Shown here one piece after another: positions 4,853 through 48,184 of a DNA stretch of 64,000 bases. The DNA lies in the NCBI GenBank assembly GCA_003599145.1, contig QZIT01000005.1, positions 384,330-448,329 on the forward strand. Direction: 5' to 3'. Position 1 is the stretch's first letter. Each line of letters begins with the position of its first letter. The position numbers and the translations under genes were made by a program. The stretch comes from Candidatus Woesearchaeota archaeon. GTDB lineage: Archaea; Nanobdellota; Nanobdellia; Woesearchaeales; UBA9642. The notes beneath the pieces are model-generated. The model saw only the letters and a program-made list of their open reading frames with translations. It was not told the DNA's origin and did no database searches.

Positions 4853-4861
4853 GAAAAGGAA

Positions 4862-21707: not shown

Positions 21708-21920
21708 TTGTTCAGGAAAGGGTGTGTTTTGGATATAAAAAAGAGTTTGGATATTCCATCGTCCATTTTTCAAGATAGAGCTCTGAAAGTTTTAGAAATT
21801 TTGGTTGAATATCTCAAGGAAGAGAGAGCATTATCCTATCACGAAATTGCTGTTTTGTTAAATAGGGATGACAGAACCATCTGGACAGTCTATCAAAGGG
21901 CAAAGAAAAAGCGAAAATGA
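21708..21920 (+). CDS. Small HTH protein (sigma-70 region 4-like), candidate local regulator
   Basis: LSYHEIAVLLNRDDRTIWTVYQRAKKKRK helix-turn-helix; start is TTG (21708 or 21729); stop overlaps the giant ORF start (ATGA). Confidence 0.75.
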   Translation: MFRKGCVLDIKKSLDIPSSIFQDRALKVLEILVEYLKEERALSYHEIAVLLNRDDRTIWTVYQRAKKKRK

Positions 21921-24900
21921 TTGCACAGCTAGAAAGGGAAAGAGAACAGTTCATTCGCAATAGAGAATACTATGTCCAAAGGCTGAAAAAAGGGCTGATT
22001 ACTGCAGATGATTACAAACATCTTATCCAGATGATGACTTCTGGAAAAACAGATGCAGAGTATCTTACTGACCTTAATCAGAAAATTGCCAGAGAAAGAA
22101 AGCAGGAAAAAAGCTTTTTCCATCATCACAAAACAGCAATGGTTTTGATTGCGTTAGTTGTTTTCTTAGGATTATTTGCAGTGCTGTTTAAAGGAAATAT
22201 TACAGGATTAGTAACCTATGGAGAAGAGCAGAACACCACTATCAACAGTAATTTCAGTACAGGAACCTATGTCTTTGATTTGCAAAACATCACAGGATTA
22301 AGCATAACAGGAAAAGTCTATGGAGAAACTGCGAAAATTTACGCGATAAAAGAGGGAAAGAAATATTTGATTTATCAAAAGGAAAAAGACAGCAATCTTA
22401 TTACAGGAAATGTTGTTGAAGAAATTATTGCGAGAGACTTAGAAAACAATACGCTGGAAAATATAACAGCGCAACCCATAGATGATCAGGAAAACATAAC
22501 GCAAGAAGCAAACGTGACGATAAACGAAACAGCGCTTAATGAAACAATTCCTGATGGAGAAATAAATCAAACTATTCCTGAGAATATATCTGAGAATATG
22601 ACAGATAATGAAACCATCAATAACACGATAGGCATAACGGTCAACGAAACCATAAACATAACAATTGATGAACCCATAAACACAACACTCAATGCAACGT
22701 TCAATGAAACAATCAACGAGACTGTTCCTTTAAATCAGACAACGATTGAAAATATAACCATCAACGAATCAGTAAATGAATCGATAGACATAAACCTGAC
22801 GGAAAATGAAACTGTCGATATAATAAATGATACAACCAACATAACCGTGAATATCAACGTAACGACAAACATAACAATAAACACAACAGCCAATACAACA
22901 GCAAATATAACCGCCAATCAAACCATCAATAACACGTTCAATGCAACAGCAAACGCAACAATAAATATAACGGTTAATCAAACAGAAAATATAACGCTCA
23001 ATGCGAGTGAAAATGAAACCAATATCGCCTATCAAATAACACCATTCACGCATGCCTGTGTCGAAACCTGCAGCTTGCCATTGAATACCATCATTTTAGA
23101 AATAGAAACAGACGGCTTTATTGAGATAGAGCAACTGCATTACACTCAGGAAAACATAACAGAAGATGCAAATATAACTGCGTTTAAGGAAAAGTTTGAC
23201 AAAGCAATAGTCATCAAGGATATAAAATTAAAAAAACAGATTCTTGGCTTGGGAGAACAAGGCTATGACATTTCCATAGAGAGTTTAGACAATCAAACAA
23301 CGGCAACGCTAGAGCCTGAAAATATAGACTCTGTACAACATATAAAAATAATCAGCAAAAATGAAAAAACATTAAGCGATATTTTTGCAGTTACACCGAC
23401 AAATGGAAAAGCAACTATTCAATTAGCAAAAATTGGATTGGCAAAAGGAATATTGCAATGTGAACTCTTTAATTTTGAAGCAGATACGTGCAATAACTGG
23501 ATAGCAACAGAGATTGCTTTCAATGATTATGGAAACTATGCAGAATTTACCGTCAATGCATTAGGTGTTTATGCAATTGAAATAGAGTCAGGAAAAGTTG
23601 AGTTGAATGTCCTGCAAGAAATTGCAAAGAAAGGCAGTGCAAGAATTATTGTTGTTCCTGAGAAACCTGCAGTGAATGATGTTCAGAAAGTTTTAGAAGC
23701 AGAAAAAACAGCAGATATTGTGCAGACAGGAACTATACAAAATAATAACATTATCGACTTAGAAAATGATCCTGCTGTTGCACGAGTTGTTTTAGACCAG
23801 CAAGTAAATGTATTGCTGCATGAAGCAATTCCTTTGATCAACGGCAATGTAAGTACATATGGATTTACGGTTAATGGTTCAGGAATAAACATTTGCATTG
23901 TTGATACAGGCATTGACAGTTCTCTTATTCCTGTAACTGCAGAGTACAATTTCCTTACCAATGACAGCAATGCAGAAGATGACAATGGACATGGAACGCA
24001 AATAGCAAACGTCATGTATGCAATTGCTCCTGCAAGCGCATTGTACAGTGCAAAAGTCATTGACAGCTCTGGACAAGGCTATGAAAGTAATGTGTTAAGA
24101 GGATTGCAGTGGTGCATGGATAATGGTGTTGATATCATCAGTTTAAGCATTGGCGCTGGAAGCTATGACGGATTCTGCGATAGCAATATTGTTGCAGAAA
24201 AAGTCAATGACGCTGTTGCGCAGGGCATTGTTGTTATCGCAGCGACAGGCAATGATTACGGCAGTAATCTCAAAGCTCCGTCCTGCGCCATCAATGCAAC
24301 AAGGGTAAGCGCAACAGATAAATCTGATGTTATTGCAGACTTTGCAAATGTAAATTTGATAACTGATATTTTTGCTCCGGGAAAAGATATAACGACAAAA
24401 ACAATTGGAAATAACGATATTACCGTTTCAGGAACCAGCATCAGCGTTCCCTTCGTTACAGCTGGAACTGCATTATTATTAGAACAGGAAACGCTTGCTC
24501 CTTCTGATGTAAAATACAGATTGCGAAGCACAGGAAAACCAATAGCATATACACAGGATAATATTATAATTAACATTTCAAGAATAGATATCTACAATTT
24601 ATTGACGAATAATGTAACCAATATTCCTTATGATTACTTCAACACTTCACAAAGCAATCAGACAGAGCAGAATCAAACGTACACCATAAGCACGGTTCCT
24701 ACGCACAGCACACCTCTTATAGAACCTTTGGAACCAGGGGACAATCAAAGCTTTGTCTGCTATAATCAATCAACGTCAGATGCAGAGGGAGATGCAGTAA
24801 CCAACATTTACAATTGGAGAATTAATAATACGCCTATTATGCTTTTGAACTTGCCGTTTGATACTAATGTTTCCGGCCATGGCAGCTCTGTGAAAGATTA

Positions 24901-27900
24901 CTCAGGATACGGAAATAATGGAACGCTTAATGGAACGACCATTTACACTATGGGAAAAATAGGGGGAGGATATCATTTTAATAAGTCGCGATCAAACTAT
25001 ATCAATGTAACGAAAGCCTCTTTGTTGCTGGTTGAAAACTTCACCATGACGTTTTGGTATTATATAGATGAAACGGTATCAATAACCCACACCCCTTATT
25101 TTGTAAATAAAGGAACAGGCACACTGGGAATAAGAATTGGAAGTGTAAACGGCCTTCCAGGAATGCGCACAGAACTCGATGCAGAAGACCTCGAGGGCTC
25201 GATATCATCAACAGTAAACAATATGTGGTATATGTACGCACTAGCCTGCAATGCAACAAGCTGTTCTACATATATCAATGGAACATTTGACGTGCAAAGC
25301 GCAGGAAAGCCGACCAATTTACAGACCTATGATTTAACCATAGGAGTCGGCGCAACATCAGCAGTTAATAGATTAAACGGAACAATGGACGAATTCAAAA
25401 TCTTCAACAGAACATTAACAGCAGACCAGATACTGCAGATTTACAATGATGAACTCAACAACAGGACTAATAGAACTATTGTCATGAATGAAACATTCCC
25501 TTCAGACAACTGGACCTGTGAAATAACGCCTAATGATAAGTCAGGTGATGGCATTACAAGAAATGTCTCTACCGTAATACAAGTAAACACAACACCAACG
25601 CACACAACACCAACGCTTTCAACAAGCGTTCCAACGTTTAGTGCAAACTTTACCTGCTATAATCAGTCAACAACAGCCTATGATGGAAAAACTGCAAGCA
25701 ACGTCTACAACTGGCTGGTTGATAATGTCTCTATAACGGTATTGAATTTGCCGCTGGATCACAACATAAGCTCAACAGCCTCTGGCGCACTGAAGGATTA
25801 TTCTGGTTACAACAACAATGGAACACTGGCAGGCACAGCCCCTGTCTGGGCAAGCAATGGAAAGGTTGGAGGGGGATATAATTTCAGTGGCGATAGAATA
25901 ACCGTAACCGACCATACAAGTTTAGACACCACAACAGCGTTCACTGTTGAAGTATGGGCATTTCCATCAACCGTGAGTAGTCCGCATGATATTATAGGAA
26001 AATATGCGTGGAGCGATGGACAAGGATTGTTTCAAGTAAGACAATTCAATGCAGAGTTACGTGCATATCTTATTGAAGGCACGACGATTCAAATCGTAAA
26101 CGCGACAAGCTTCTTCACTATCAATACTTGGCATCACATTGTCGTTGTTTATAATAGTTCAAATATCACCATATATAAAAATGGAGTATGGGCTGCAAAT
26201 TACGATCCAACACTTTCTTTTCTACCAACCAACACAAACGTAGTCATAGGCGCAGCAGCAGATACAGGAACTGCAAACTATTTCTCTGGCGTCATTGACC
26301 ATGTAAAAATCTACAACAGAAGTCTTTCCGGAAATCAAATAGCGCAGTTATATGCAGAAACTTCTGCAGGAAAAACAGACAACAGCACTATTACTGATTT
26401 GGAAACCGTTGATTCAGGAACGCATGAATGGGTTTGCGAAGTTACGCCTTTAGATTACCAAAGAGCAGGAATGACTAAAAACGTTACTGCAACGACTTCT
26501 CCAGATACCACTGCACCAACCTGCAGCATTTCGGTGATAGACGAAACCAGTAATTTTGCATTTGTTTCAGGAAACCGTGTCTATTACACAAACAAGAGCA
26601 GTGGCAGCTTTACGGTAACCGTGAGCGCTTCAGACGCGCAAAGTTCTATTGATACCGTAACCTTCCCTTCAACCGTTGATAACGGAGGAGGGGATAGAGA
26701 TGCAGCTTACAGCTGGCAGTATAACTGGACAACGGCAGACAATGCAAATTATACCAATGCAAATATCACGGTTAATGACAGCAATGGAAATGTGGGAAGC
26801 TGTTTGTTCAATGTAACGTTTGATTACGTCGCGCCTTCAGGAGGCTCTATCAATTACAGCAATAGCGTTATTAATTTTAAATCGCACCTCATTAATGTCA
26901 GTGTAGGACTGGACGATTTATCTGGCATTTCAGAAGGAAACGCAACTGCGTGGATTTACAGGCAAAATGCAAGCTACAGCCAGTCGACATTTACCTGTGG
27001 AAGCTACGGAGCGTTTGAAAGAATAAGCGATAACACAACGACAAAATCCCAAGTGAACGACTCAACACTAACCTATTTTTATTGCTATAAATACATCTAT
27101 ACCGTTACTGATAACGTCAATAACAGCGTGAACTATACATCATCTAACGTCGTTGTTGTTGACCCTTGCAGCAGGACAACAGGCGACTGGTTTGTCAACG
27201 AAACGTTAGTCTGTGAAAACAGGACAGGCAGCAATAAAATAAGCATTCCAAGCAATACACTGACTGTTGGAATCAACGGAACATTATCATTTATGAACGT
27301 CCATTTTGAAATCAATCACACCATTATCAAAGGAAACTTTACCTACAAACACTCTAAGAACGACGTGAGCAGCACTGCTTCACAGATGTGGGCATATGGA
27401 GATACTAATATAACAGGAAAATTGGTTCTTGAAAACGTGAGCATGTACAATAACGACTTCAACCAGAATTACGGCATTACCGTCAATGGAACCATGATCA
27501 TCAATAGCTCCTCGAACGTAACAACCTATGACGGAGACTCAACGCAATTTATTTTCCAAGTCTACAATGGAAGCACGTTTATCGCAAAAGACAGTGCATT
27601 GTCCTATATGGGAAAAAGTCCTGCAGGATTGTGGATTAATGCATCAAGCCAATTAATCAACAACACCATCAATGAGGAGCTCACAACAGGATCAAACTAT
27701 GTACAGATATATTCGAAACATAACATCATCGAAAATAACACGTTTTACGGCTCAAACAATGCACAGCTCCTCCTTCAGTTGAATTTTGTATCAAACACAA
27801 CGCTCAAAAACAACACACTCCAGTCAAAAATAGGATCAGATATGGTTTCGCTGACAAATTCTGAAAACAACACCATAACGGGAAATTTATTTTGGAATAA

Positions 27901-30900
27901 GCATTTCAATTCATTCAATAACGAAGAGCTTGCACTCTCGATTGCATCATCCAGTTCAGGAAACAACATAACGAACAACAAATTCTATGGAGGAGGCCTG
28001 GGAATTGCCGTTCAAGGAACCAATATGCGAATAGTGAACAATACTTTTGTGAACGTATCAAGCGACAGCGATACAGCAGAATATGGCTATGGAGCAGTAT
28101 ACGGCAACAGCGGTTCCTTGGTTTTGGAGAATAACACCGTCAATAGCAGCTATAGAGGATTTTTGATTATGCTGAACAATACCAAAGTGATAAGCAACAA
28201 TTTTTTTAACATCAGCAATGTCGCCATATTTGTAAGCAGCGTTAATAATACCAATATCACCAACAATTTATTGGAAAACAACAGCAACGGTATATTCGTC
28301 TACAATGCATCATTCACGTTTGTTGAAAACAACACCTTAAAGAATAACACCATAGCAGGCATCAATGTCAGCGACACAACCGCAGTAAACATCATCCAAA
28401 AGAACATCATTACCAAGACAACGCATGCAATCCACTTGAAGCAGGCAAATCACACCAATATCACCAACAACACCCTAGAAAACAACACACAAGGCATCGT
28501 TATTCTAGGATATACGAATTTCACCAGCATTCTTTATAACACCATTCTCAATAACACCAAGGCAGGCATCAATATTTCAGTCAACGCAACCAATAACACG
28601 ATTCAGTATAACAATATTCACAACAACAGCGATGCCAATGTTGTCTATGCGTTTGCAAACACACAGTCTTTAAATGTTTCTGCACTGTATCAGTGGTGGG
28701 GAACAACCAATGAAACAATCATCGAACAGTATTTGCTTCATTCTGTTGACAGTTCTAGCTATGGAACGATTTCTTACTGCCCCTATTTGATATCTGCCTA
28801 TCCTGATGGCGCTATTGCTGAAGCAGAAACGTCCCAATGCATGTGCACTGCAGCATTCAGTTATCGAGGAGGAAACGTGTACTTCAACGCAACTGCTTTT
28901 GAAGCTCAATCGCAGATTAATGCATCCTGCTGCGGCAATCAGTATGCGGAAAATATTTTTTCAAGAGTTTGTATAAGTGGCTGCACTTCATCATCTTCAG
29001 ATATTGCATGTTGTGATGCATTAAACAATGAGATAACTCCTTACACTTCTCAAGGAACAGTTTTAATCTATCATTTCAGCGAGGGAACAGGAACAACAAC
29101 TGCAGACAATTCTGGCTATAATAATACAGGAACCATAACCAAAGGATTATGGAACGAAGGAAAGTTTGGCAGTGGATTAAATGTAAGCAACAATAGTTAT
29201 GTAACGCGTGCAGATGCTGGAAGTTACGGATTGAATATTACGAATTCCATAACCTTAGAAGCATGGGTAAAACTAGACAAATTGCCAACAGCAGCATCTT
29301 ACTTTGCAGTCATTGATAAGAAATCAGGAACTGCAGGATATAGTTTAGATATTACTAACGAGACGTACAATTACAGCGCAAGAATTTATCTGCTCAATAC
29401 AGGAACCAGCATCAAGGTCAACAGCACTACAAACGTAACAACAGGAACATGGTATTATCTTGCGGGAGTCTTTAACGGAACAGTTACAAGGCTCTATGTC
29501 AACGGAGTTCTGGAAAGCGAAATGAACCAGACAGCAACGATAGGAACAACAACGAACAGTTTAAGAATAGCAGCAGATGCAACGCCTGCAAATTATTTTA
29601 ATGGAACTGTTGATGAAGTAAGAATCAGCAATTATGCAAAGTCTGAACGGGAAATTAGCGATGAATACAGAAGAAGAAATCAATTATTGGTTTGTCATTT
29701 CAATAATGGAACAGGCACCACAATTAATCTTCCTGCAAACACAACGTATAATGGAGATGGAACCTATACGACAACCTATCAGCCAGGTCCTGATGACGGA
29801 AAAGACAACTATCTTTGGGCTGCATTTACTGACACAAATTATGGCACAAGTTCATCTTTGCTAGTCTATAAAAATTTTGATTCGAACGCATTAGTGGAAT
29901 TTAACATAACAGACATCATGAACATCAATAGCTCTATATCAGTTGTTAACGCAACATTCTTCGTTTATAAATTTGATAGTAATAGCGGAAGCAGAAATTC
30001 AAAAGTATGGCGTATTGCAAAAAACTGGAGTGAAGCAACGAGCAGCTGGACTAATGCCAGCGCAGGAGATCCTTGGTCTACTGCAGGAGGAGACATGGGA
30101 AGTGCCGAATACGACAGCATATCAAGCACTGCTCCTGTATGGGATCCGTTTAATGTTACCAATCTAACAAAGGAGTGGATTAATGGAACCTATGCAAACT
30201 ATGGATTTTTGATAAAGGGAGGGGGTTTGACTACTGATGATCAAACGTTCTATAGTTCAGACTATCCCACTGATGCAACACTCAGACCTAAACTTACCAT
30301 AACCTATACTTTAAATAATGCCAACATTTCTTGTGAAGATGGAGAGATGCCTACTGTTTCAGTTTTCTTGAATCAGTCTGGAAAAATTAAGGAAGGCGTT
30401 TTGTTTAATATATCTTCCATGCATCGACTTAAATTCAACACCACCAACAACTACAACAACACCGTAGGAACAGTCATGTTCTGGATAAAGCCATCATGGA
30501 ATGGCTATGACAACGGCCAATATTACTTGTTCGTGGCTGACAACAGCACCAGCAATTACGGAAACAGGAGAGAATTATTCAAGGCAAGCAATAACAGTTT
30601 AATTCTCAGAGTCTATAACGCAACAGGAAATGATACTAATGTGACCTATGATGTTTCAGGATGGGCTGCAAATACTTGGTATTTTGTTGCTGCGTCATGG
30701 AATCAAAGCAACATGAGTTTATATATTAATGAAACGATGGTTGCAAGTACCAATACTGCAGAAGTTCCAACCGGAACAGGAACCTATTTCTATATAGGGA
30801 ACAGAGAGAACCTGTCACAGCCTGCAAATGCCACTTTCGATGAACTTGCAATCTATCAAGATGTCTTTAGCAGTTCGGAAATGTCAGACTTCTACAGCAA

Positions 30901-33900
30901 AGCAACGAATAACGTATATGACGCTGTTTGCTATAATGGCCTTACCTGCATTGCAGGCAATACGAGCTTAATCTCTACAGCATCAGGCATAGCAAATAGA
31001 GATGACAGTCAAGTGTACTGCGAAGCAGGAAACAGCTATTCCTGCACTAATTATTCCTGGCTGAGCAATCTTGCCAGTCCAATTTGCTGTGGTGACGATA
31101 CAAGCGAAAACACCATAACAAGAACGTGTGATGGAACATCCTATTGCACAACAGATACAACAGATAGGGCGTGCTGCACATCAACAGACCAGTGTGTTTA
31201 CAACGGAGTTTGCCATGCAACCAACACACACAATTATACAGGAGCAAATACGAGCTATTGCGTTAACGGCCAATGGACTGCGCCACTGCCACCTATTATT
31301 ATAAACGCAACAGACAACACTTCAAACGGAGTTATAGGCCCTGGGCACACAGTTAACTTCAGCATATTCTGGAGCCCTCAAACCAACAACGCAAATGCAT
31401 CGATATTGATTTTAAGAAATATGTCTACAGATCAATGCAACTATGTTAACAGAAGCGCATGCATGTGTAGCCAGAATGTAACCGTAGGCGATCCAACAAT
31501 CTATCAGAATGGAAGCTGTACCTATAGCGTACAGCCAAGCGACGGCTCAAGCATCACTTGGTATCCAAGAATCTGCAACAGCAACAACCAGTGCACATCT
31601 ATTTTCATCAGTGATTATTGGTTTAATGATACTGTGAATAATAAAGCATACAGAGGAAACACGACCAATGAAACTCCTCCTAATGCATCGTTCAGCGGGT
31701 TAGAGTTTAATGAAACTGCCTATACAAATATAAACTTAAGCGATAACGTTCGTGCGTCAGTAAGCTTATCAGTCAATGAAGGAGTCATGGGCTACAATGT
31801 CATGGACTTCAGGTTTAAAATCAACGAAAACGTAAGCGACATAGGCTCTATTCAAATACACTTTGAAGGATATTCAACGGAAGGCACAGGAGGTCTTCCT
31901 CCTGGAGCAGCACCAGAAAATAGCGATGATATGAGCATCGTTTTACACAACATAACAGCAAATAATCTTACCAGCAACTTACAAACAGCTTGTTCTCAGG
32001 CAACAGGCTGCAGAAACATAGACTACCAGATGGATTATAATATAACGAGTGACTTTGACGATTTCGTGAACAGCACTAATCACTTGCGGTTTTTAGCCTA
32101 TGAATATGATGATAATTATAAACCGCCTGCGCAAACTTGTCCTTATCTGTACGTTTGGAATGGAACCGATTATCAGTTTATTTTAGATGTTGGATTTGGC
32201 ATGTTGGGAAGAGGACTTTCTGTATCTGAAACAACAAACTTTAGCGCACCGCTTCCTTATAACAGAGACTATGTTTTGATACAAGGCGCTGCCCTAGTGA
32301 ATGAAAATAACAGCTATCACTTAAAAATCAGCGAGGAATTGAATGAAATAACCTACCTGGATAGCGTTGCTGTGTATGCAATAGACCATGCAAAAGATAT
32401 TGCAGTCTATCCTGATTTCAGAACAACAGGCATTGTTTACACCGTCAATAAGACCTTGCAAGAGCCTTTAGCCTGTCAAGATGCATTAGGCATTGACTGC
32501 AGAGAAAAAATAAAATCTCTTGACGCTGCAGCATGGAATCAGACAGAAGATAATCGTTTCATCATGTTTGAACTGCCGGCAATGGACAGCGCAAAAGAGC
32601 AAAAGCTCGTGATAAGAAACAGCTATCACAGAGAAAGAGAAGATGCAGAAATAGCGTATCCATATCCTCCTGTATTAGAATTCTTGAAGAATAATGAATG
32701 GACAGCATTTGGTAACATCGATAACATCGAAGAATCCTATAATCTTCAAATTCCAAAGATGAAAACAACAGTCATTAACATTACAGGCATCAACAGCTCT
32801 GTAGTGAGAATACGGTATCCTGAAGGAGACGTATTAGGAACTGTTGATTTTATAGGTGTAGATAACACGAATCAGCAAAACATAGTCAAAACAAAATTGA
32901 CCATGAAGCGCGCAGAGTTGAAAATCAATGAGTACAGTGCAGCACACCCAGGAATTACAGGAAACTTAACGAGGCTGGGTGATGTTTTCAATCTTATCCA
33001 CAAAGCAGACGATACTTTTGTCATCATGAACAGAGGAGATTATGTCGATTTCACCTTTGATGCTCTTGAAGAGAATCAAGATACAGAAAGAGACTTCATT
33101 CTTGCAGGAGTGTCTTATTACAAACAGGACCAAAATCCTTATGGCAAAAACATTCTCCCTTTGCCTTTTGCAAACATGTCAAGTTATCCGTATAATCAAT
33201 CACTTGAACAGCATCCTAACATGAGCTTTTACCGTGAATACAACAGCAGGCCTGAAACAAGGCACAACAGTTTGTATGCAGACAGGGTAAACATCACGGT
33301 TATTTCAAGAATGGGCATCTTATCCTTAGACACAACACCTCCTGCCTGCAACATCAAAACAATACAATTTTCACGAAATTACAGTTTTTACAATATAACA
33401 GCCGGAACGTACAGCATATATTATAACAATAAAAGCTCAGGGCATTTTAATGTTTCTATAAATTCCAGCGATAATATAGGCATGAGCGCAATAACGTTAT
33501 TCCCTAACACAACAACGTGGGGAGGATATAATTATAACACCACATATACCACAGGAATAAACTGGACGTATAATTTCAGCACGGCGAACAACACTAATCA
33601 CACTGCTGCACTCGTCTATGTTTTTGACAGCGTCAACAACCAAGCAAACTGTTCCTTCAACGTATATGTCGATTACTTGCCGCCATCAGGAGGCTCTATC
33701 AATATTACAACGGCAAAGAATCAAACCATTTACACCCAGCCTGTTGGATTAAGTTTAAGTGCAGGAACAGATGATTTATCAGGCATCAACCCAAGTTATG
33801 CGGTGAAAAAAATATACAGAAGAAACGGAACGTATAGCAACCCGACAACCTGCACAGACAGCTGGTCTGCTTGGTCTGTTATCAATGAAACCACAGAGAC

Positions 33901-36727
33901 AATCACGAGCTATAATGACAATAATCTCAGTCCTGAAAGCTGTTATAATTACCAATTTGAAGTGAGCGATAACGTTTACAACACCATTAATTACACCAAC
34001 CCTGATTGGGCATATTATGCAGGATGTCCTTCTTCAATAGCTGACTGGACCATCAGCGCTGGACAAACGCAAATCTGCGAAAATATGACGATGGTGGTAA
34101 GCAATAGTTTAATATTGGAAAATATCGGAATGCTCATATTAAGAAATGTAACGCTTTACGTCAACAACACAGACAACAGAGGCATACTGCACATCGAAAA
34201 TGAATCAGTCATTTGGATAAGAACAAACTTCAGTATTGGGGGAAATCCAGAAGACCCAGAATTGCCATCATACGAAGACGGCTGGCTTTATGTAAACAAA
34301 AGCACCTTAAGAATGAACGGAACATTTGATGGCGAAAGCAACATCGTCATCAGGGCAGCAACAGGTTATGGTGAAGTTAAAATCACCAATAGCAACATCA
34401 CTAACGGCGATAATCCTGCAGCAAACTACGGATTCTATACACTGTCCTTAAGCTTACTGGGCAGCTTTAAAATGGAAAACAGCACCGTAAGCCATGCAGG
34501 ATGGAGCAATACCTATAGGCAAAGAGGCTTAGAATTTAGCACCTATAGCGCTGGCGCTCCTATCGTTATCAACGGAAACAACTTCACTAACAATTATATA
34601 GCAATAGCCATCTTTAACGATTTATATGGCGCGTTTATTGAAAACAACACATTTACAAACAACACTGCAGGCGTTTTTCTTGGAACATCAGCTTCAAAAG
34701 GAGTCAATCTCAAGAACAACTTATTTCTGAATACCAACGGAAGTGTTTTAGGAGCTATTTATATCAATAGATTGAATCACAACTTAACCAACATCACCAT
34801 CAAAAACACGGGCAATTATTCCATAATATTTTCAAATAATGCAGAAAACGTCACTTTAAGAAATGTGCTATTGCAAAATAACACGTATGGATTATACCTT
34901 AATGGAAGCAGGCTTATCCGCATAAGCAACTCAACCATCAATGAATCGCTCTATGCAGATATCGCGTTTAACGGAGTGGAAAGAAGCAATCTCACTGCAG
35001 AAAACACCACGTTCAGAAAAGACAATGTTTCCTTTAGCAGTTGCACGGATTTGCAAGATGAATGCTTCCTCGATGTCTATTGGTATGCCAATGTAAAAGT
35101 CAATACGACGTTTGATGCAGGGCTAACAGGAGCAAATGTTTCCATAGCAAACCTACAAGGAACAACTAATTTCAACCAGCCAACAGACAGTAATGGCTAT
35201 ACCAACACATCTATTATTAGGGAATACTGGAATAATGGAACATGGATTTTAAATGCAACCCCCCACGTCTTTAATGCAAGCTATCCTCCTTATCCAAATC
35301 AATCAAAAAGTGTAATAGTAAATCAGTCGCTTGTTTATAATTTCACCATGCAAAGCTTGCCATCGTACAGCGCAGTAGTCATTACACCAACGCCTGTTGT
35401 TGTTCAGCAAGTGATGAGCTGTTATGCAAACTTTATCGATTTAGAACAAACACTGATAAATGTTTCATTCATCTGGTTTAGAAATGGAACGCAAAACAAC
35501 AGCTGGAATGCAACAGTTGAAGGTTCCAATGCGACAAACATTTACACTACGCTTAACATAACAGGAACGAATTTATCTCTTGGCGATAACTGGACCTGCA
35601 GCGCAAGAGCTCACGATGGATTCAATTACACTGATTGGTATAACAGCACAACGATAACTGTGCAAAACGGAGTTCCAAGCATTGTCAATGTTGCAATTAC
35701 TCCAACAACGCCTAATCACGCAGACAACTTGAACTGTTCAGTAAACGTCTCAGATACAGATTTATTGGTAAACGTCAGCTATATCTGGTATTTCAACGGA
35801 ACACAAACGAATAATTACAATACTACGGTAGAGGCAAATCCTGCAAACCTTATTTACACTAACTTCACTGTTCCTGCATCTGCAGTCAATCTCAGCGATA
35901 ACTGGACCTGCAGCGCAAGAGCGTGTGATGCAACAGGATGCAGCAATTGGACAAATAGCTCTACGGTTACTATTATCAATAACCCTCCAAATAGCGTAAC
36001 GCTTTTCAAACCAACAAATGGAAATACTACTATTCATGAAAGAAACACGACGTTTGAATGGGTTAATACAACAGATACAGAAGGAGATTCCTTGACCTAT
36101 CAAATCAACGTAACCACTGCTGACAGTGTTGACTGCACAGGAACAAGCTTCAACGTAACAGGAATTTCTGCAAACACCACAGTTTCTCCTCAAGAGCTGT
36201 GCGTCAGAACAGAAATGGGCTCTGTCAATTATTACAATTGGTCAGTAAGAGCTTGTGATCAATGGAACTGCAGTGCATGGGCAAATGTCTGGAATTTCAG
36301 CATTGAACCTTGGGTTGTTATAACGTTCATTAACGACAGCATCAATTTCGGAACCCTTACGATTGACCAGACAGAAGACACCGAAGATGGAAGTCCAACG
36401 CCATTCATACTGCGAAATGATGGTAATGTAAAATCAGACTTGGTTAATGTTAGTGCAAACCAAAGCTTATGGACAACAGAAGCATTGGGAACAAACTATA
36501 CGCAAATTAAGGCAGCAAACAGAACAGAGCCTGGAAGCATCAATGGCACAGGCTCGTTGATTAACTGGACTAATCTGACAGCAGCCAATCAATCCATTAT
36601 CTATCAGTTGAATTATAACGACAGCAGGGATACTGCAGATATTGATGTTAAAGTCACTGTTCCAACATTTGAACCTGCTGGAAATAAAATAACCTCGCTG
36701 ATATTTTACTGGGAGCAAACATGGTAA
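21917..36727 (+). CDS. Giant (4936 aa) N-terminally membrane-anchored surface protein: S8 subtilase + LamG + beta-helix + Ig-like domains
   Basis: Single uninterrupted ORF; TM helix TAMVLIALVVFLGLFAVLF near residue 75; VDTGID / NGHGTQIA / SGTSISVP subtilase triad; many N-x-S/T sequons. Confidence 0.95.
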   Translation: MIAQLEREREQFIRNREYYVQRLKKGLITADDYKHLIQMMTSGKTDAEYLTDLNQKIARERKQEKSFFHHHKTAMVLIALVVFLGLFAVLFKGNITGLVTYGEEQNTTINSNFSTGTYVFDLQNITGLSITGKVYGETAKIYAIKEGKKYLIYQKEKDSNLITGNVVEEIIARDLENNTLENITAQPIDDQENITQEANVTINETALNETIPDGEINQTIPENISENMTDNETINNTIGITVNETINITIDEPINTTLNATFNETINETVPLNQTTIENITINESVNESIDINLTENETVDIINDTTNITVNINVTTNITINTTANTTANITANQTINNTFNATANATINITVNQTENITLNASENETNIAYQITPFTHACVETCSLPLNTIILEIETDGFIEIEQLHYTQENITEDANITAFKEKFDKAIVIKDIKLKKQILGLGEQGYDISIESLDNQTTATLEPENIDSVQHIKIISKNEKTLSDIFAVTPTNGKATIQLAKIGLAKGILQCELFNFEADTCNNWIATEIAFNDYGNYAEFTVNALGVYAIEIESGKVELNVLQEIAKKGSARIIVVPEKPAVNDVQKVLEAEKTADIVQTGTIQNNNIIDLENDPAVARVVLDQQVNVLLHEAIPLINGNVSTYGFTVNGSGINICIVDTGIDSSLIPVTAEYNFLTNDSNAEDDNGHGTQIANVMYAIAPASALYSAKVIDSSGQGYESNVLRGLQWCMDNGVDIISLSIGAGSYDGFCDSNIVAEKVNDAVAQGIVVIAATGNDYGSNLKAPSCAINATRVSATDKSDVIADFANVNLITDIFAPGKDITTKTIGNNDITVSGTSISVPFVTAGTALLLEQETLAPSDVKYRLRSTGKPIAYTQDNIIINISRIDIYNLLTNNVTNIPYDYFNTSQSNQTEQNQTYTISTVPTHSTPLIEPLEPGDNQSFVCYNQSTSDAEGDAVTNIYNWRINNTPIMLLNLPFDTNVSGHGSSVKDYSGYGNNGTLNGTTIYTMGKIGGGYHFNKSRSNYINVTKASLLLVENFTMTFWYYIDETVSITHTPYFVNKGTGTLGIRIGSVNGLPGMRTELDAEDLEGSISSTVNNMWYMYALACNATSCSTYINGTFDVQSAGKPTNLQTYDLTIGVGATSAVNRLNGTMDEFKIFNRTLTADQILQIYNDELNNRTNRTIVMNETFPSDNWTCEITPNDKSGDGITRNVSTVIQVNTTPTHTTPTLSTSVPTFSANFTCYNQSTTAYDGKTASNVYNWLVDNVSITVLNLPLDHNISSTASGALKDYSGYNNNGTLAGTAPVWASNGKVGGGYNFSGDRITVTDHTSLDTTTAFTVEVWAFPSTVSSPHDIIGKYAWSDGQGLFQVRQFNAELRAYLIEGTTIQIVNATSFFTINTWHHIVVVYNSSNITIYKNGVWAANYDPTLSFLPTNTNVVIGAAADTGTANYFSGVIDHVKIYNRSLSGNQIAQLYAETSAGKTDNSTITDLETVDSGTHEWVCEVTPLDYQRAGMTKNVTATTSPDTTAPTCSISVIDETSNFAFVSGNRVYYTNKSSGSFTVTVSASDAQSSIDTVTFPSTVDNGGGDRDAAYSWQYNWTTADNANYTNANITVNDSNGNVGSCLFNVTFDYVAPSGGSINYSNSVINFKSHLINVSVGLDDLSGISEGNATAWIYRQNASYSQSTFTCGSYGAFERISDNTTTKSQVNDSTLTYFYCYKYIYTVTDNVNNSVNYTSSNVVVVDPCSRTTGDWFVNETLVCENRTGSNKISIPSNTLTVGINGTLSFMNVHFEINHTIIKGNFTYKHSKNDVSSTASQMWAYGDTNITGKLVLENVSMYNNDFNQNYGITVNGTMIINSSSNVTTYDGDSTQFIFQVYNGSTFIAKDSALSYMGKSPAGLWINASSQLINNTINEELTTGSNYVQIYSKHNIIENNTFYGSNNAQLLLQLNFVSNTTLKNNTLQSKIGSDMVSLTNSENNTITGNLFWNKHFNSFNNEELALSIASSSSGNNITNNKFYGGGLGIAVQGTNMRIVNNTFVNVSSDSDTAEYGYGAVYGNSGSLVLENNTVNSSYRGFLIMLNNTKVISNNFFNISNVAIFVSSVNNTNITNNLLENNSNGIFVYNASFTFVENNTLKNNTIAGINVSDTTAVNIIQKNIITKTTHAIHLKQANHTNITNNTLENNTQGIVILGYTNFTSILYNTILNNTKAGINISVNATNNTIQYNNIHNNSDANVVYAFANTQSLNVSALYQWWGTTNETIIEQYLLHSVDSSSYGTISYCPYLISAYPDGAIAEAETSQCMCTAAFSYRGGNVYFNATAFEAQSQINASCCGNQYAENIFSRVCISGCTSSSSDIACCDALNNEITPYTSQGTVLIYHFSEGTGTTTADNSGYNNTGTITKGLWNEGKFGSGLNVSNNSYVTRADAGSYGLNITNSITLEAWVKLDKLPTAASYFAVIDKKSGTAGYSLDITNETYNYSARIYLLNTGTSIKVNSTTNVTTGTWYYLAGVFNGTVTRLYVNGVLESEMNQTATIGTTTNSLRIAADATPANYFNGTVDEVRISNYAKSEREISDEYRRRNQLLVCHFNNGTGTTINLPANTTYNGDGTYTTTYQPGPDDGKDNYLWAAFTDTNYGTSSSLLVYKNFDSNALVEFNITDIMNINSSISVVNATFFVYKFDSNSGSRNSKVWRIAKNWSEATSSWTNASAGDPWSTAGGDMGSAEYDSISSTAPVWDPFNVTNLTKEWINGTYANYGFLIKGGGLTTDDQTFYSSDYPTDATLRPKLTITYTLNNANISCEDGEMPTVSVFLNQSGKIKEGVLFNISSMHRLKFNTTNNYNNTVGTVMFWIKPSWNGYDNGQYYLFVADNSTSNYGNRRELFKASNNSLILRVYNATGNDTNVTYDVSGWAANTWYFVAASWNQSNMSLYINETMVASTNTAEVPTGTGTYFYIGNRENLSQPANATFDELAIYQDVFSSSEMSDFYSKATNNVYDAVCYNGLTCIAGNTSLISTASGIANRDDSQVYCEAGNSYSCTNYSWLSNLASPICCGDDTSENTITRTCDGTSYCTTDTTDRACCTSTDQCVYNGVCHATNTHNYTGANTSYCVNGQWTAPLPPIIINATDNTSNGVIGPGHTVNFSIFWSPQTNNANASILILRNMSTDQCNYVNRSACMCSQNVTVGDPTIYQNGSCTYSVQPSDGSSITWYPRICNSNNQCTSIFISDYWFNDTVNNKAYRGNTTNETPPNASFSGLEFNETAYTNINLSDNVRASVSLSVNEGVMGYNVMDFRFKINENVSDIGSIQIHFEGYSTEGTGGLPPGAAPENSDDMSIVLHNITANNLTSNLQTACSQATGCRNIDYQMDYNITSDFDDFVNSTNHLRFLAYEYDDNYKPPAQTCPYLYVWNGTDYQFILDVGFGMLGRGLSVSETTNFSAPLPYNRDYVLIQGAALVNENNSYHLKISEELNEITYLDSVAVYAIDHAKDIAVYPDFRTTGIVYTVNKTLQEPLACQDALGIDCREKIKSLDAAAWNQTEDNRFIMFELPAMDSAKEQKLVIRNSYHREREDAEIAYPYPPVLEFLKNNEWTAFGNIDNIEESYNLQIPKMKTTVINITGINSSVVRIRYPEGDVLGTVDFIGVDNTNQQNIVKTKLTMKRAELKINEYSAAHPGITGNLTRLGDVFNLIHKADDTFVIMNRGDYVDFTFDALEENQDTERDFILAGVSYYKQDQNPYGKNILPLPFANMSSYPYNQSLEQHPNMSFYREYNSRPETRHNSLYADRVNITVISRMGILSLDTTPPACNIKTIQFSRNYSFYNITAGTYSIYYNNKSSGHFNVSINSSDNIGMSAITLFPNTTTWGGYNYNTTYTTGINWTYNFSTANNTNHTAALVYVFDSVNNQANCSFNVYVDYLPPSGGSINITTAKNQTIYTQPVGLSLSAGTDDLSGINPSYAVKKIYRRNGTYSNPTTCTDSWSAWSVINETTETITSYNDNNLSPESCYNYQFEVSDNVYNTINYTNPDWAYYAGCPSSIADWTISAGQTQICENMTMVVSNSLILENIGMLILRNVTLYVNNTDNRGILHIENESVIWIRTNFSIGGNPEDPELPSYEDGWLYVNKSTLRMNGTFDGESNIVIRAATGYGEVKITNSNITNGDNPAANYGFYTLSLSLLGSFKMENSTVSHAGWSNTYRQRGLEFSTYSAGAPIVINGNNFTNNYIAIAIFNDLYGAFIENNTFTNNTAGVFLGTSASKGVNLKNNLFLNTNGSVLGAIYINRLNHNLTNITIKNTGNYSIIFSNNAENVTLRNVLLQNNTYGLYLNGSRLIRISNSTINESLYADIAFNGVERSNLTAENTTFRKDNVSFSSCTDLQDECFLDVYWYANVKVNTTFDAGLTGANVSIANLQGTTNFNQPTDSNGYTNTSIIREYWNNGTWILNATPHVFNASYPPYPNQSKSVIVNQSLVYNFTMQSLPSYSAVVITPTPVVVQQVMSCYANFIDLEQTLINVSFIWFRNGTQNNSWNATVEGSNATNIYTTLNITGTNLSLGDNWTCSARAHDGFNYTDWYNSTTITVQNGVPSIVNVAITPTTPNHADNLNCSVNVSDTDLLVNVSYIWYFNGTQTNNYNTTVEANPANLIYTNFTVPASAVNLSDNWTCSARACDATGCSNWTNSSTVTIINNPPNSVTLFKPTNGNTTIHERNTTFEWVNTTDTEGDSLTYQINVTTADSVDCTGTSFNVTGISANTTVSPQELCVRTEMGSVNYYNWSVRACDQWNCSAWANVWNFSIEPWVVITFINDSINFGTLTIDQTEDTEDGSPTPFILRNDGNVKSDLVNVSANQSLWTTEALGTNYTQIKAANRTEPGSINGTGSLINWTNLTAANQSIIYQLNYNDSRDTADIDVKVTVPTFEPAGNKITSLIFYWEQTW
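22498..23030 (+). repeat. Low-complexity N-[IT]-T / NET-rich linker inside the giant protein
   Basis: NETINITIDEPINTTLNATFNETINETV...NVTTNITINTTANTTANITANQTINNTFNATANATINITVNQT. Confidence 0.9.
23860..24500 (+). other. Subtilisin-like (S8) peptidase domain inside the giant protein
   Basis: ICIVDTGID (Asp), DDNGHGTQIANV (His), AATGNDYG (oxyanion Asn), VSGTSISVPFV (Ser). Confidence 0.93.
24835..25455 (+). other. LamG/concanavalin-like domain 1 of the giant protein
   Basis: LNLPFDTN...DYSGYGNNGTLNG...FTMTFWYYID...GTMDEFKIFNRTLTADQILQIY. Confidence 0.88.
25740..26360 (+). other. LamG/concanavalin-like domain 2 of the giant protein
   Basis: LNLPLDHN...DYSGYNNNGTLAG...FTVEVWAFPS...GVIDHVKIYNRSLSGNQIAQLY. 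Confidence 0.88.
27280..28640 (+). other. Right-handed beta-helix (NosD/PbH1-like) region 1 of the giant protein
   Basis: Repeating NNT.TNN.L.NN.NGI-type coils (NNTNITNNLLENNSNGIFVYNASFTFVENNTLKNNTIAGINV). Confidence 0.85.
29058..29670 (+). other. LamG/concanavalin-like domain 3 of the giant protein
   Basis: LIYHFSEGTGTTTADNSGYNNTGTIT...ITLEAWVKLDK...GTVDEVRISNYAKSEREI. Confidence 0.88.
29710..30310 (+). other. DNRLRE-like domain of the giant protein
   Basis: GPDDGKDNYLWAAFTDTNYGTSSSLLVYKNFD...VNATFFVYKF...FNVTNLTKEWINGTYANYGFLIKG...RPKLTITY. Confidence 0.7.
30380..30900 (+). other. LamG/concanavalin-like domain 4 of the giant protein
   Basis: GTVMFWIKPSWNG...NTWYFVAASWNQSNMSLYINETMV...ATFDELAIYQDVFSSSEMSDFY. 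Confidence 0.8.
34080..35030 (+). other. Right-handed beta-helix region 2 of the giant protein
   Basis: NSTVSHAG...INGNNFTNNYIAIAIFNDLYGAFIENNTFTNNTAGVFL...LRNVLLQNNTYGLYLNGS. Confidence 0.8.
36310..36727 (+). other. C-terminal all-beta domain of the giant protein, similar to the downstream small secreted proteins
   Basis: INFGTLTIDQTED...FILRNDGNVKSDLVNVSANQSLW...ADIDVKVTVPTFEPAGNKITSLIFYWEQTW*. Confidence 0.6.
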
Positions 36728-37992
36728 TGAAGAAAAAATGGATGATGGCTATTTTCATAGTGGTAGCTATGGCTGTGATGATAGACCAAGTTGCTGCCTT
36801 AGGTGTTGCTCCAAGCAGAGACTTAATTGATTTCTCTCCTGGACAAAAGACACTTACTGCCAGGATAATCAATAACGACCATAAAGATATGCGCATTGCC
36901 CTGTATCCAAAAGGGGATTTAGAGCAATATGTACAGATTGACAATCCTATTATTACGGTAAAGGCAGATGAATCAGAAAAATCATTCACCTATACTATTA
37001 ATTTGCCCGATAAACTAGAACCAGGAACGCAAAAAGTGGGAATTATTTTAGTTGAACTTCCTGAAACGTTTGTTGAAAGCGATGATAACTTATTAGTAAG
37101 CGATGAAAATGCCATTTTATTTGCAAACAAGAAAAAAGACGCCCTTATCAGCGCAACCACTGCAGTCATTTATCAATTAGGTGTAAGAGTTCCTTATCCT
37201 GATACCTATATTGAAAGCGGCCTGTATGTAACAGAAGGCAAGATAGGAGATCTATTTACTTTCACTATTCCTTTGGTTAATAGAGGTGAAAAAGCAACAA
37301 GTGTGTATGCAGATATTGTGATAAAAGGCCCAACGAATGAAGAAATTGCCAGATTCAAAACAGAAACCATAACTCTTGAAGGATTAAAAGAAGGAAAATT
37401 GCAGTACAGCTGGAAGGCAGATGTAAACCAAGGTTCTTACATTGCAGAAGCAGTGGTGCATTACAATGGAAAAGTCATTGAATTAAACAAAAAATTCGGA
37501 GTGGGAAATCTTTTCATAGAAATCCAAGACTTAAAAGTGGACAGCTTTAAATTAGGTGGCATAGCTAAATTTGATGTGTATCTGAAAAACCAGTGGAATG
37601 AACCTATCAAAGACGTTTATGGCGAATTAAAAGTGCTTGATAAAGATGGCAATAGCATTAATAGCTTTAAAACCTTGAGTACAGATATTCCAAGCTATGG
37701 AGATGCAACGATTAACGGCTATTGGGATACCACAGGAGTAGATGTAGGCAGCTATGATGTCAGAGTTATCTTAAATTACGCAGGCAAAACATCTGAAAAG
37801 CTTTTCCAGACAGTTGTTGGCATAGATAAAATACAAGTAGGCAGTACAACAGGAAAAGTTACTGGAGATAAAGGAGGAGGAAGCAACATATCCTTGCTGA
37901 TTATTTTAATTGCTGTTTTGATTGCTATCAATATAGGCTGGTTTGTATTCTTCAGAAAAAGAATGAAAAAGCCTCCTGTAAGCACTGGTTAA
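36727..37992 (+). CDS. Secreted/membrane protein with Ig-like (COG1470/DUF916-like) domains and C-terminal TM anchor
   Basis: N-terminal signal, GVAPSRDLIDFSPGQKTLTARIINND..., C-terminal SLLIILIAVLIAINIGWFVFFRKRMKK. Start ambiguous (36721 ATG or the next in-frame ATG at 36727). Confidence 0.85.
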   Translation: MKKKWMMAIFIVVAMAVMIDQVAALGVAPSRDLIDFSPGQKTLTARIINNDHKDMRIALYPKGDLEQYVQIDNPIITVKADESEKSFTYTINLPDKLEPGTQKVGIILVELPETFVESDDNLLVSDENAILFANKKKDALISATTAVIYQLGVRVPYPDTYIESGLYVTEGKIGDLFTFTIPLVNRGEKATSVYADIVIKGPTNEEIARFKTETITLEGLKEGKLQYSWKADVNQGSYIAEAVVHYNGKVIELNKKFGVGNLFIEIQDLKVDSFKLGGIAKFDVYLKNQWNEPIKDVYGELKVLDKDGNSINSFKTLSTDIPSYGDATINGYWDTTGVDVGSYDVRVILNYAGKTSEKLFQTVVGIDKIQVGSTTGKVTGDKGGGSNISLLIILIAVLIAINIGWFVFFRKRMKKPPVSTG

Positions 37993-38040
37993 TGAAAAAA
38001 GAGAAAACTTTATATAGGACTATGTTCAGTATTTTGTACT

Positions 38041-38301
38041 ATGGGTGCAGAGGAGACTATAGACAGAAAGGTCGAAAAGCCAGATCTTTCTCAGAAAACT
38101 ATTGTAGTATTAGTTGTGCTTACCATATTAATCTCTATCTTAGGAACCTTAAGCGTCATGTATGAATATGGCAGCATCAAGGTAACTACCCAAACAGAAC
38201 CAAAAACAAGCCAAGCGAGCGTCAAATTAAATATCATCAGCCCTGAAGAGTTACAGCCAAAAACTTCAACAGGGCAAGTCATATTGGAAATAAAAAAATA
38301 A
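38041..38301 (+). CDS. Small single-TM protein sharing the N-terminal TM signature of the two downstream paralogs
   Basis: VVLVVLTILISILGTLSVMYEYGSIK ... STGQVILEIKK; TATA about 40 bp upstream. Confidence 0.75.
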   Translation: MGAEETIDRKVEKPDLSQKTIVVLVVLTILISILGTLSVMYEYGSIKVTTQTEPKTSQASVKLNIISPEELQPKTSTGQVILEIKK

Positions 38302-38311
38302 AGGTGATTAC

Positions 38312-38965
38312 ATGGATATCTCAAACAAAACTCTTGCATTATTTTTGGTAGCGGCAATCATTGTTTCCATAGCAGGAACATTTATCAGCCTGCAGAAAAT
38401 AGGAAAATTTGAGCAAGCAAGCATCACAGGCTATGCTACAAACTATACAGGAAACGTTACGCTTGAAATTTCTAAAAACGCATCGTTGATTTTCACGATA
38501 AGCAGCATAAACTGGGGAACAGGCAGTGTTGCAGGAGGTTCTTATTGTGAATTATGGACAAACGGTTCTGGATTTAACTCAGCAGGATGCATAGGCTTCA
38601 GCACCATTCCCAGCACATCGTCATTAGTTATTGAAAACGATGGACAAGTACACTTAAACGTTACCATGAACTCCTCGGTAAATGAAACAGGATTCTTCGG
38701 TTCCTACATTGCTGCACATAAACTGCAATGGCAGGTTTTAGAAAATGAAACCAACAGTTGCTTCGGAGGAACAGTAAGCCCATCAGCTTTTACCAATGTT
38801 TCTGTAGCGTCAATGGCATCAGCGGCGATTGTTTGCGATTACCTCAACTTTACTGATAGCAAAGACTCCCTTTTAGTTAATGTCTTTGTGAACTTTACTG
38901 ATTTGACGTCTCAAGGTCAGAAAAATGCGACCTTTATAGCATTGGGAACGCAAATAGGAACGTAA
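38312..38965 (+). CDS. Secreted all-beta protein, TasA/camelysin-like candidate subunit (paralog 1)
   Basis: N-terminal TM ALFLVAAIIVSIAGTFISLQKIG, then ITGYATNYTGNVTLEI, INWGTGSV, IENDGQVHLNVTMNSS, GQKNATFIALGTQ; SD-like GGTGA before ATG. Confidence 0.75.
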   Translation: MDISNKTLALFLVAAIIVSIAGTFISLQKIGKFEQASITGYATNYTGNVTLEISKNASLIFTISSINWGTGSVAGGSYCELWTNGSGFNSAGCIGFSTIPSTSSLVIENDGQVHLNVTMNSSVNETGFFGSYIAAHKLQWQVLENETNSCFGGTVSPSAFTNVSVASMASAAIVCDYLNFTDSKDSLLVNVFVNFTDLTSQGQKNATFIALGTQIGT

Positions 38966-38967
38966 AC

Positions 38968-39612
38968 ATGGAAAACAAAACGCTTCTTTTTTTATTAGTT
39001 CTAACTATTGCTATTTCTCTCTTGGGAACAGCAGTGACGCTGAGTAAAGTAGGAAAAATACAACTGCAGCCATTGCAAAAAACAACAGGACTTGCCCAAA
39101 GCGATATAGGAAATGTAACTTTAAATATCCAAAAAAATGCGTCGTTGATTTTTGTCATAAACTCGGTAAACTGGAGTTCTGGAAGTGTAGATACGCTAAC
39201 AGGCTACTGCGAACTGTGGACAAATCTTTCTGGATTCAACTCTGCAGGATGCATAGGTTTTTCAACGGTAACAGAAAACCAGACATTAGTCATCGAAAAC
39301 GATGGACAAGTACACTTAAACGTTACGCTTAACTCTTCAGTCAATGCAACAGGATTTATGGGAGAAACAGGTGCCATGTTCCAATGGAAAATAAACGAAA
39401 ATGAAACCAACAGTTGCTTCGGAGGAACAGTAAGCCCAACAACATTCACCAACGTATCAGTAGCACCTGCAGCAAACATCTGTGATATGCTCAACTTTAC
39501 AGATACAAAAGACACGCTCAGGGTTGATTTGTTTGTTAACTTCACGATTAATGCTCCTCAGGGTCAAAAGAACGCAACCTTCACCGCATTAGGAACGCAA
39601 ACAGGCACATGA
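38968..39612 (+). CDS. Secreted all-beta protein, TasA/camelysin-like candidate subunit (paralog 2)
   Basis: Same architecture as 38312-38965, with tracts of exact nucleotide identity. Confidence 0.75.
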   Translation: MENKTLLFLLVLTIAISLLGTAVTLSKVGKIQLQPLQKTTGLAQSDIGNVTLNIQKNASLIFVINSVNWSSGSVDTLTGYCELWTNLSGFNSAGCIGFSTVTENQTLVIENDGQVHLNVTLNSSVNATGFMGETGAMFQWKINENETNSCFGGTVSPTTFTNVSVAPAANICDMLNFTDTKDTLRVDLFVNFTINAPQGQKNATFTALGTQTGT

Positions 39613-39615: not shown

Positions 39616-40809
39616 ATGAAATATGCGCTATTTTTTTGTTTATTCTTTAGTTTAAGCAGTTTTGCGAGTGCAGTTTCCATTGCGGGAGGAAACCAGCAAG
39701 TAACCGTCAATGACGGCACAGTAAGAAGCTTTGATTACCTTATAGGCGGAGCAGATAATATAGAAAGCTACGCCAATGGAAATCTTCCTAACTTAAGCAA
39801 GTATGTTACGCTCATAGACGAAAATCAATATGGCCCTGCAAGGCCTATACAAGTCCAGCTTGATTTTTCAGAAGGCTTTAACGAAATACCTGCAGGAAGG
39901 TATACTGTTTTTGTAGGCGCAAAGGAATATCGCTCATCAACAGGAATGATAGGAGGCATTGCGGCAATACAGACAAAAATAGACATTTTAGTGCTCTATC
40001 CTGGAAAATACCTCGAATGGTCTATTGATGCCCAAAGCACTAACGTAAATGAAACTGCCAACGTTTCTTTAATTATTCACAATCTTGGAAGAGAAACCAT
40101 CAATGAAGTTTCTGGAATAATTAGAGTTTATAATCCTGATGGCATGCTGATGTCTACCGCTGCAACAGACAAAAAAAGCCTTTTGCCTGATGAATTACAC
40201 ACTATATCTGCGGGAGTTTCAACACAAGGATATGCCCCAGGCATGTACCAAGTCAACGCAACAGCGCATTATGATGAAGCACAAGATTCAAAAACAGCAG
40301 ACTTAAGAATAGGACAATTAAGAGTGTATGTTGTTGACTACACAAAAACGTTCGCTATTGATACCATCAACAAAATGGACATCATGATAGAAAGTGACTG
40401 GAGCGGAACGATTAAGGATGTCTATGCCGTCGTGAAAACTCCCAATAAGGATGTTAAAACCGCAAACATCGACCTTCCAAAATTCCAAAGAGGAACATTA
40501 GAAGCCTATTGGGATACTAAAGGATTGGGAAAAGCAGACGTCAATGCAACTATCCAACTGTTCTACAACGGCCAGCACAGCGAAGAACAAGTGATATTGT
40601 ACATCAATGAAACAGGAGAAGGCGACGTTCCTCCAAAAAAAGAAGTTAAGCTAGAACTTACCACGACAGCCATCGTTTACATTATCATCATCGTCCTTCT
40701 TATTGGCAATTTAACGTATTTTATCATAAGATACCTGAAAAGGCAGAAAAAGCCCGAGAACAATGAAGAGAAAAAACCATATGAAGAAAAGAATGAAGTT
40801 CAAAAGTAG
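39616..40809 (+). CDS. Secreted Ig-like protein with C-terminal TM, paralog of 36727-37992
   Basis: Shares the LEAYWDTKGL / INGYWDTTGV block and the Ig-like layout with the upstream protein; C-terminal TTAIVYIIIIVLLIGNLTYFIIRYLKRQKK. Confidence 0.8.
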   Translation: MKYALFFCLFFSLSSFASAVSIAGGNQQVTVNDGTVRSFDYLIGGADNIESYANGNLPNLSKYVTLIDENQYGPARPIQVQLDFSEGFNEIPAGRYTVFVGAKEYRSSTGMIGGIAAIQTKIDILVLYPGKYLEWSIDAQSTNVNETANVSLIIHNLGRETINEVSGIIRVYNPDGMLMSTAATDKKSLLPDELHTISAGVSTQGYAPGMYQVNATAHYDEAQDSKTADLRIGQLRVYVVDYTKTFAIDTINKMDIMIESDWSGTIKDVYAVVKTPNKDVKTANIDLPKFQRGTLEAYWDTKGLGKADVNATIQLFYNGQHSEEQVILYINETGEGDVPPKKEVKLELTTTAIVYIIIIVLLIGNLTYFIIRYLKRQKKPENNEEKKPYEEKNEVQK

Positions 40810-41221
40810 CTTTATCAGCATACTCATCTTAGTCGTACTCCTTACCGTCATTCTCACCATAGGCATTTACCAGTACATAGTCATAGATTACAAAGAAGTA
40901 AAAACAGGAATCATAGTCAATGCTGACTTAAGGGCAGGATTTGGCATCATGAAAGGCAATGACTTTCTCTACTTTGGTTCTATGTACAGAGGGGGAATGG
41001 TTGAACAAAAGGTTGATCTGAAAAGTGATTACCGAGCCTGGGTAAAAATAAAAATAGAAGGAAACATCAGTGATTTTGTAAGCGTCTCTGAAAACAATTT
41101 CATTCTTGAACCCTATCAGCAGAAAGAAATAACCTTTACTGCAAGCATTCCTGAAACTGCAATCCCTGGAAATTATACGGGAGACATACGATTTTATTTT
41201 CTAAAGCCAATCTTTTCCTGA
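40763..41221 (+). CDS. Single-TM protein with one Ig-like ectodomain
   Basis: TM FISILILVVLLTVILTIGIYQYIVI; LEPYQQKEITFTASIPETAIPGNYTGDIRFYF; overlaps the upstream CDS by 47 nt. Confidence 0.8.
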   Translation: MKRKNHMKKRMKFKSSFISILILVVLLTVILTIGIYQYIVIDYKEVKTGIIVNADLRAGFGIMKGNDFLYFGSMYRGGMVEQKVDLKSDYRAWVKIKIEGNISDFVSVSENNFILEPYQQKEITFTASIPETAIPGNYTGDIRFYFLKPIFS

Positions 41222-48058: not shown

Positions 48059-48184
48059 TGCTCTAGTACAGGAAGCGCTGTTTTTAAATATTTCCTTTGC
48101 CCTTCTCAAAATGGTTTAAGGCAGATTATTACTCTTGCTGAGTACTCTAAAAAAGTATATAAACCAAAGGGGTATAAACAGAGC

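Follow-up and report, generated by a model that had tools for sequence, protein, structure and literature searches.

The last ~147 residues of a giant surface protein (4936 amino acids, aa) of a Candidatus Woesearchaeota archaeon and both small proteins encoded downstream of it are, beyond reasonable doubt, homologous. The genes are contained in a stretch of 64,000 nucleotides (assembly GCA_003599145.1, contig QZIT01000005.1, positions 384,330 to 448,329), which is called the window here and whose own numbering is used throughout; the genes of the cluster are on its plus strand. The locus may encode a donor-strand-type surface assembly, in which a donor would be anchored in the membrane, the small proteins would be the subunits and the giant would be an end piece that only accepts a strand; this reading is favoured here with a probability that we would put slightly short of even. 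Woesearchaeota and their relatives are small-genome archaea which are thought to be attached to, or dependent on, other cells. The cluster would define, in a form open to testing, the parts of a surface machine and link it to the very large proteins of these archaea.

Homology of the giant's terminal domain and the small proteins

The open reading frame of the giant (21917..36727) was described from its translation and from Pfam and NCBIfam searches. A cytoplasmic N-terminus is followed by a membrane helix (residues ~74-91); the protein also contains LamG domains, a disaggregatase-related repeat, beta-helix repeats and Ig/FN3-like domains (Ig, immunoglobulin). A subtilisin-like domain is present at residues ~653-907; this protease could cleave the giant itself or its partners during assembly. 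The C-terminal, pilin-like domain, as used in the searches, comprises residues ~4790-4936 (36284..36724), and its sandwich proper begins at about residue 4802 (36320). In an AlphaFold2 model of the last two domains (predicted local distance difference test, pLDDT, 92.5) the final domain consists of eight strands. It follows the last FN3/Ig-like domain (35978..36307), whose final strand is ANVWNFSI.

Small protein 1 (P0004; 217 aa; 38312-38965) and its paralogue, small protein 2 (P0005; 214 aa; 38968-39612), share 63% identity and possess a hydrophobic helix of ~28 residues at the N-terminus. The AlphaFold2 model of small protein 1 (mean pLDDT 88) showed this helix and then eight strands; together with the family alignment, it places the membrane helix at residues 4-31 and the beta-sandwich at residues 59-214. 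Residues 32-58, to which no strand was assigned, contain a candidate donor strand, GNVTLEIS (residues 47-54; 38450-38473), the counterpart of which in small protein 2 is GNVTLNIQ (39109-39132). Four cysteines (P0004 residues 79, 93, 150 and 175) were invariant in an alignment of 33 small proteins, which suggests two disulphides outside the cell; the giant domain of the window does not contain these four cysteines. An earlier note on this DNA had described the small proteins as secreted and as encoded just downstream of the giant. Their genes are indeed downstream, beginning ~1.6 kb past the giant's stop codon, with two other genes (36721-37992 and 38041-38301) in between; secretion is not established, since cleavage of the N-terminal helix is unproven.

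The resemblance of the giant's C-terminus to the small proteins, which was the central claim of that note, was borne out by profiles, shuffle controls and matching strands in two confident AlphaFold2 models; the sequence stretches which it quoted were all located, in the order given. With the giant domain as a single query against its own genome (1.3 Mb), small protein 2 was found with an expect value (E) of 1.2e-4, and a profile of 30 giant domains detected small protein 2 with E 5e-14 and small protein 1 with E 9.8e-9. Comparison of the two families with hhalign yielded a probability of 99.5% (E 3e-22, 139 columns), while 3.6% was not exceeded by eight column-shuffled controls, one reversed control or two families of unrelated beta-sandwich proteins encoded at the locus. 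Smith-Waterman scores of the giant domain against each of the small proteins were above those of all 1000 shuffles, and the eight predicted strands of the giant domain and of the small protein correspond one to one in their order. Convergence, or low-complexity similarity among beta-rich, Asn/Thr-rich surface proteins, might be considered, since the giant and the small proteins are all N/T-rich beta proteins; it appears hardly credible, as composition-preserving shuffles, column shuffles, reversal and the other beta-sandwich families of the locus all failed, and as proteins of ~200 aa which score with the giant-domain profile link both families. These bridging proteins were found close together on a contig (G224:C93, G152:C29, G298:C11, G393:C12). 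No convincing Pfam match was obtained for either family, and NCBIfam gave none for the small proteins.

Matches to the giant-domain profile were obtained in 127 of 288 genomes of the window's archaeal order, and also in other orders of the class; three named relatives in which the domain was found are Woesearchaeota metagenome-assembled genomes. In the genomes of the order, a great many different long open frames, of up to 9788 aa, terminate in this domain. Frames of 9,180-9,788 residues with this terminal domain were seen in genomes G138, G165 and G182.

Structure searches with Foldseek returned for the small protein largely pilus or fibre subunits as top matches (TLP-1b with E 1.7e-3, TLP-1a, FimF/FimG and Pyrodictium cannulae, with F-ENA lower in the list), so the predicted fold would appear weakly closest to donor-strand pilus subunits. 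The two-domain model of the giant returned mostly tandem FN3 proteins, which says little about the last domain, because the construct contains two sandwiches.

The 86-aa protein and a possible donor-strand assembly

The gene at 38041-38301 encodes a membrane protein of 86 aa, which corresponds to the N-terminus of the small proteins only: a charged N-terminus, a membrane helix, a linker and two strand motifs, ASVKLNI (38215-38235) and GQVILEI (38272-38292), without a sandwich. Its family was aligned by hhalign with the helix, linker and first strand of the small proteins (probability 96.8, E 2.4e-10; membrane-helix and reversed controls below 1%), and an independent search of this genome with its profile matched each small protein at the N-terminus (E 2e-8 and 1.4e-7). 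At most loci inspected, the homologue is directly upstream of a small-protein gene; 86 of 100 tabulated matches of this type have such a gene within 400 bp downstream on the same strand, with a median gap of 35 bp. The protein is a candidate for a membrane-anchored strand donor. The giant domain presents the opposite case. In the AlphaFold2 model, WNFSIEP, the equivalent of GNVTLEIS of small protein 1, is the strand with which the FN3-like domain before it closes; ANVWNFSI thereby occupies the position of the small proteins' free N-terminal strand. In 34 of the 42 cases where giant domain and small protein were found on one contig, the small gene was on the same strand, at a distance of 0-6 kb downstream.

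From these sequences it would appear that three kinds of proteins split one interaction between them, the 86-aa protein having strands only, the small proteins both strand and sandwich, and the giant a sandwich without a free strand. Such a division is the expected appearance of a donor-strand assembly which has a start and an end. The small proteins could be pilin-like subunits with membrane helix, linker, free N-terminal strand and open beta-sandwich, and the free strand of one subunit would fill the sandwich of the next. Since the 86-aa protein retains just the membrane helix and two strands, it could give a strand and not receive one, and would serve as a base or starter held in the membrane. 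TapA, which has this role for TasA, is a precedent for a one-sided partner (PMC9674648, PMC10151520), and Saci_0405/0406 are another. The C-terminal domain of the giant, on the other hand, could receive a strand and not give one, because its N-terminal strand position is filled by the last strand of the FN3 domain before it; it would then be an end piece, displaying the protease, lectin-like and beta-helix domains of the giant on the structure. The Ig-like membrane proteins which adjoin the giant and the small genes could be their chaperones or membrane partners. The analysis establishes homology, gene order, co-occurrence and predicted strands, from which we infer strand exchange, an open groove, polymerisation, docking, polarity and a chaperone role. 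That the giant may dock into a small-protein polymer, as the earlier note suggested, is plausible and gains support from the operon, from the co-occurrence of the parts and from the lack of a free donor strand on the giant domain.

Several points weigh against such an assembly. Filament, complex and strand exchange are deduced from sequences and predicted strands. The N-terminal membrane helix of the giant, unless cleaved, is hard to reconcile with a distal tip, and a long filament would be impossible if the helix of the small proteins stays uncleaved. The Foldseek matches of the small protein are weak, none having E <= 1e-3, with a TM-score of about 0.4. The strands of the 86-aa protein and the small protein's own strand are only modestly alike (mean z about 1), their likeness is barely higher within the same genome than against other genomes (a weak excess, which we do not take as proof), and short motifs with alternating hydrophobic residues are of a generic kind. 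A giant-domain match and an N-terminus of the 86-aa/small-protein type occurred together in 105 genomes, compared to 60 expected (n = 288), a figure which ignores phylogeny and the incompleteness of metagenome-assembled genomes and in which some of the giant-profile matches are small proteins; 22 of the 127 genomes with a giant-domain match have no match of the 86-aa type.

Ig-like membrane proteins and the alternatives to a filament

An Ig-like protein of 423 aa (P0002; 36721-37992), whose gene begins within the last codons of the giant, and a second one of 397 aa (39616-40809), which follows the small proteins, belong to one superfamily according to alignment and to the merging of iterated profiles; both have a membrane helix at the C-terminus and what appears to be a signal peptide. 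For 26 of 30 giant domains, a gene of the superfamily starts no more than 400 bp downstream, mostly within 45 bp or overlapping, and the same holds for 21 of 30 small-protein genes. From this gene order, each sandwich domain would have the adjoining Ig-like membrane protein as its immediate partner; P0002 is a candidate for a WxLIP-like partner, and the 397-aa protein for a partner of the small proteins. No match to the PapD family was among the first 25 Pfam families listed for these proteins. WxLIP_HBD was matched by 16 of 25 superfamily members (best E 2.5e-6; the scores shown were all below the cut-off of 28.9 bits), and WxLIP_PGBD by two of the 25. A further protein of 152 aa (40763-41221), with N-terminal membrane helix, Ig-like domain and homologues at other loci, gave a weak match to WxLIP_PGBD (E 0.0015, below the cut-off).

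These data bear on the main rival, which is nearly as likely as donor-strand assembly, namely a surface complex like that of bacterial WxL proteins, without any filament. Each sandwich would dock on its own Ig-like membrane partner, which would anchor it and lend a strand; giant and small proteins would share a docking domain and form no polymer. In bacteria, the WxL cluster contains a small domain-only protein, a large protein which carries the domain C-terminally and an Ig-like transmembrane protein, WxLIP, a strand of which is predicted to complete the WxL domain (PMC10599100). The same three-part layout is present here. The position of the Ig-like genes, the WxLIP_HBD matches and the membrane helix kept by the small proteins would all agree with such a complex. 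However, those matches for which scores were shown are sub-threshold, and none to WxLIP (PF06030 and PF11797) above the curated cut-offs was among them. A search of 145 genomes with WxL itself (PF13731) at E <= 5 gave nothing at these loci, while the Lactococcus control was positive, and by inspection neither the giant domain nor P0004 or P0005 contains a W-x-L, of which WxL proteins have two. The rival also leaves the conserved strand-only protein and the tandem small proteins unexplained. Compared with the clusters of Lactobacillales and Bacillales, where strand completion is likewise a prediction, the locus shares the Ig-like protein with C-terminal membrane helix, and it differs by its archaeal host, by the extra 86-aa gene and by the membrane helix on the small proteins.

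A further explanation would be a generic C-terminal module for sorting or envelope binding, which attaches proteins to the surface layer of the archaeon or to glycans; the small proteins would then be other users of the module and not bind the giant. The great variety of long frames terminated by the domain would be in accordance with this. The tight and directional linkage with the small, 86-aa and Ig-like genes speaks against it, and we consider this explanation improbable.

A juxtamembrane motif, [TSI]G-x-[V/A/L/I], was noticed just outside the membrane helix in 32 of 33 small proteins, compared to 71 of 354 other windows of sequence, and in 10 of 13 Ig-like transmembrane proteins, compared to 24 of 319 other windows. 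Examples are ITGLVTY of the giant (residues ~92-99), P0004 residues 38-43 and TTGKVTG of P0002, ahead of its C-terminal helix; the motif is also present at several other giant N-termini (loci L092, L093, L101, L102 and L104). It is possibly a shared signal for processing or anchoring.

Comparison with known systems and neighbouring genes

In its proposed working the locus is like TasA/TapA and in its gene layout it matches the WxL cluster; by the tests applied it is a member of neither. The membership in the TasA/camelysin family which the earlier note had considered was not supported: PF12389 matched nothing in the genome (the Bacillus subtilis control was positive) and no member of either family's alignment. 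No NCBIfam model for a SipW-type signal peptide was matched by P0004, P0005 or the 33 members of the small-protein family. TasA was absent from the 50 Foldseek matches listed for the small protein, whose model is a confident sandwich with an unpaired N-terminal segment. The likeness to TasA/TapA and to the camelysins consists of beta-sandwich subunits, an N-terminal candidate donor strand and an accessory protein which resembles only the N-terminus of the subunit. Unlike TapA, the accessory protein here is a membrane protein; it contains two strand motifs and lacks an Ig domain. The giant end piece and the paired Ig-like genes have no counterpart in the TasA system.

Archaeal threads (Saci_0406/0405) are linked by donor strands, and a proposed cap holds one half of the strand exchange (PMC9715654). 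Like these threads and the AbpA bundling pili, the proteins described here are archaeal and would be beta-sandwich subunits outside the type IV class, with strand linkage proposed in our case. The thread cap keeps its sandwich and is without an acceptor site, whereas the strand-only protein is without a sandwich altogether. A relationship to threads or AbpA pili was not detectable in the sequence search of the PDB; profiles of both families and P0005 found nothing relevant there, and the small-protein alignment found no pilin. With the chaperone-usher pilins FimF, FimG and FimH there is a weak resemblance in fold, and an Ig-like chaperone occurs in that system; its tip adhesin, which accepts a strand and gives none, may be likened to the role proposed for the giant. 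The differences are the lack of a sequence match, the single membrane of the archaeon and the membrane anchoring of its Ig-like proteins. The class III signal model of type IV pilins and archaellins (TIGR02537) was touched by just one of the 33 small proteins, with E 0.095.

A literature search of limited coverage revealed no paper linking these families to DPANN archaea, and no description of this combination of parts. Perhaps the locus represents an archaeal surface appendage of a new donor-strand class, which would be widespread among relatives at class level, with a tiny two-strand membrane protein as base, a pilin-like shaft, giant protease/adhesin acceptor-only ends and paired membrane Ig proteins as chaperones; we consider this wider proposal rather less likely than not. 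It would be a case where donor-strand assembly is divided among strand-only, strand-plus-acceptor and acceptor-only proteins. Current libraries leave the proposed machine unannotated, and in Pfam and NCBIfam neither the sandwich nor the 86-aa protein has a model.

Downstream of the surface-protein cluster, a gene for a MoxR-type AAA ATPase was found at 47999-49237. An apparent operon on the minus strand (53979-57174) encodes an ATP-binding cassette (ABC) ATPase, an NPCBM/CARDB-type protein and a permease of the FtsX/MacB type.

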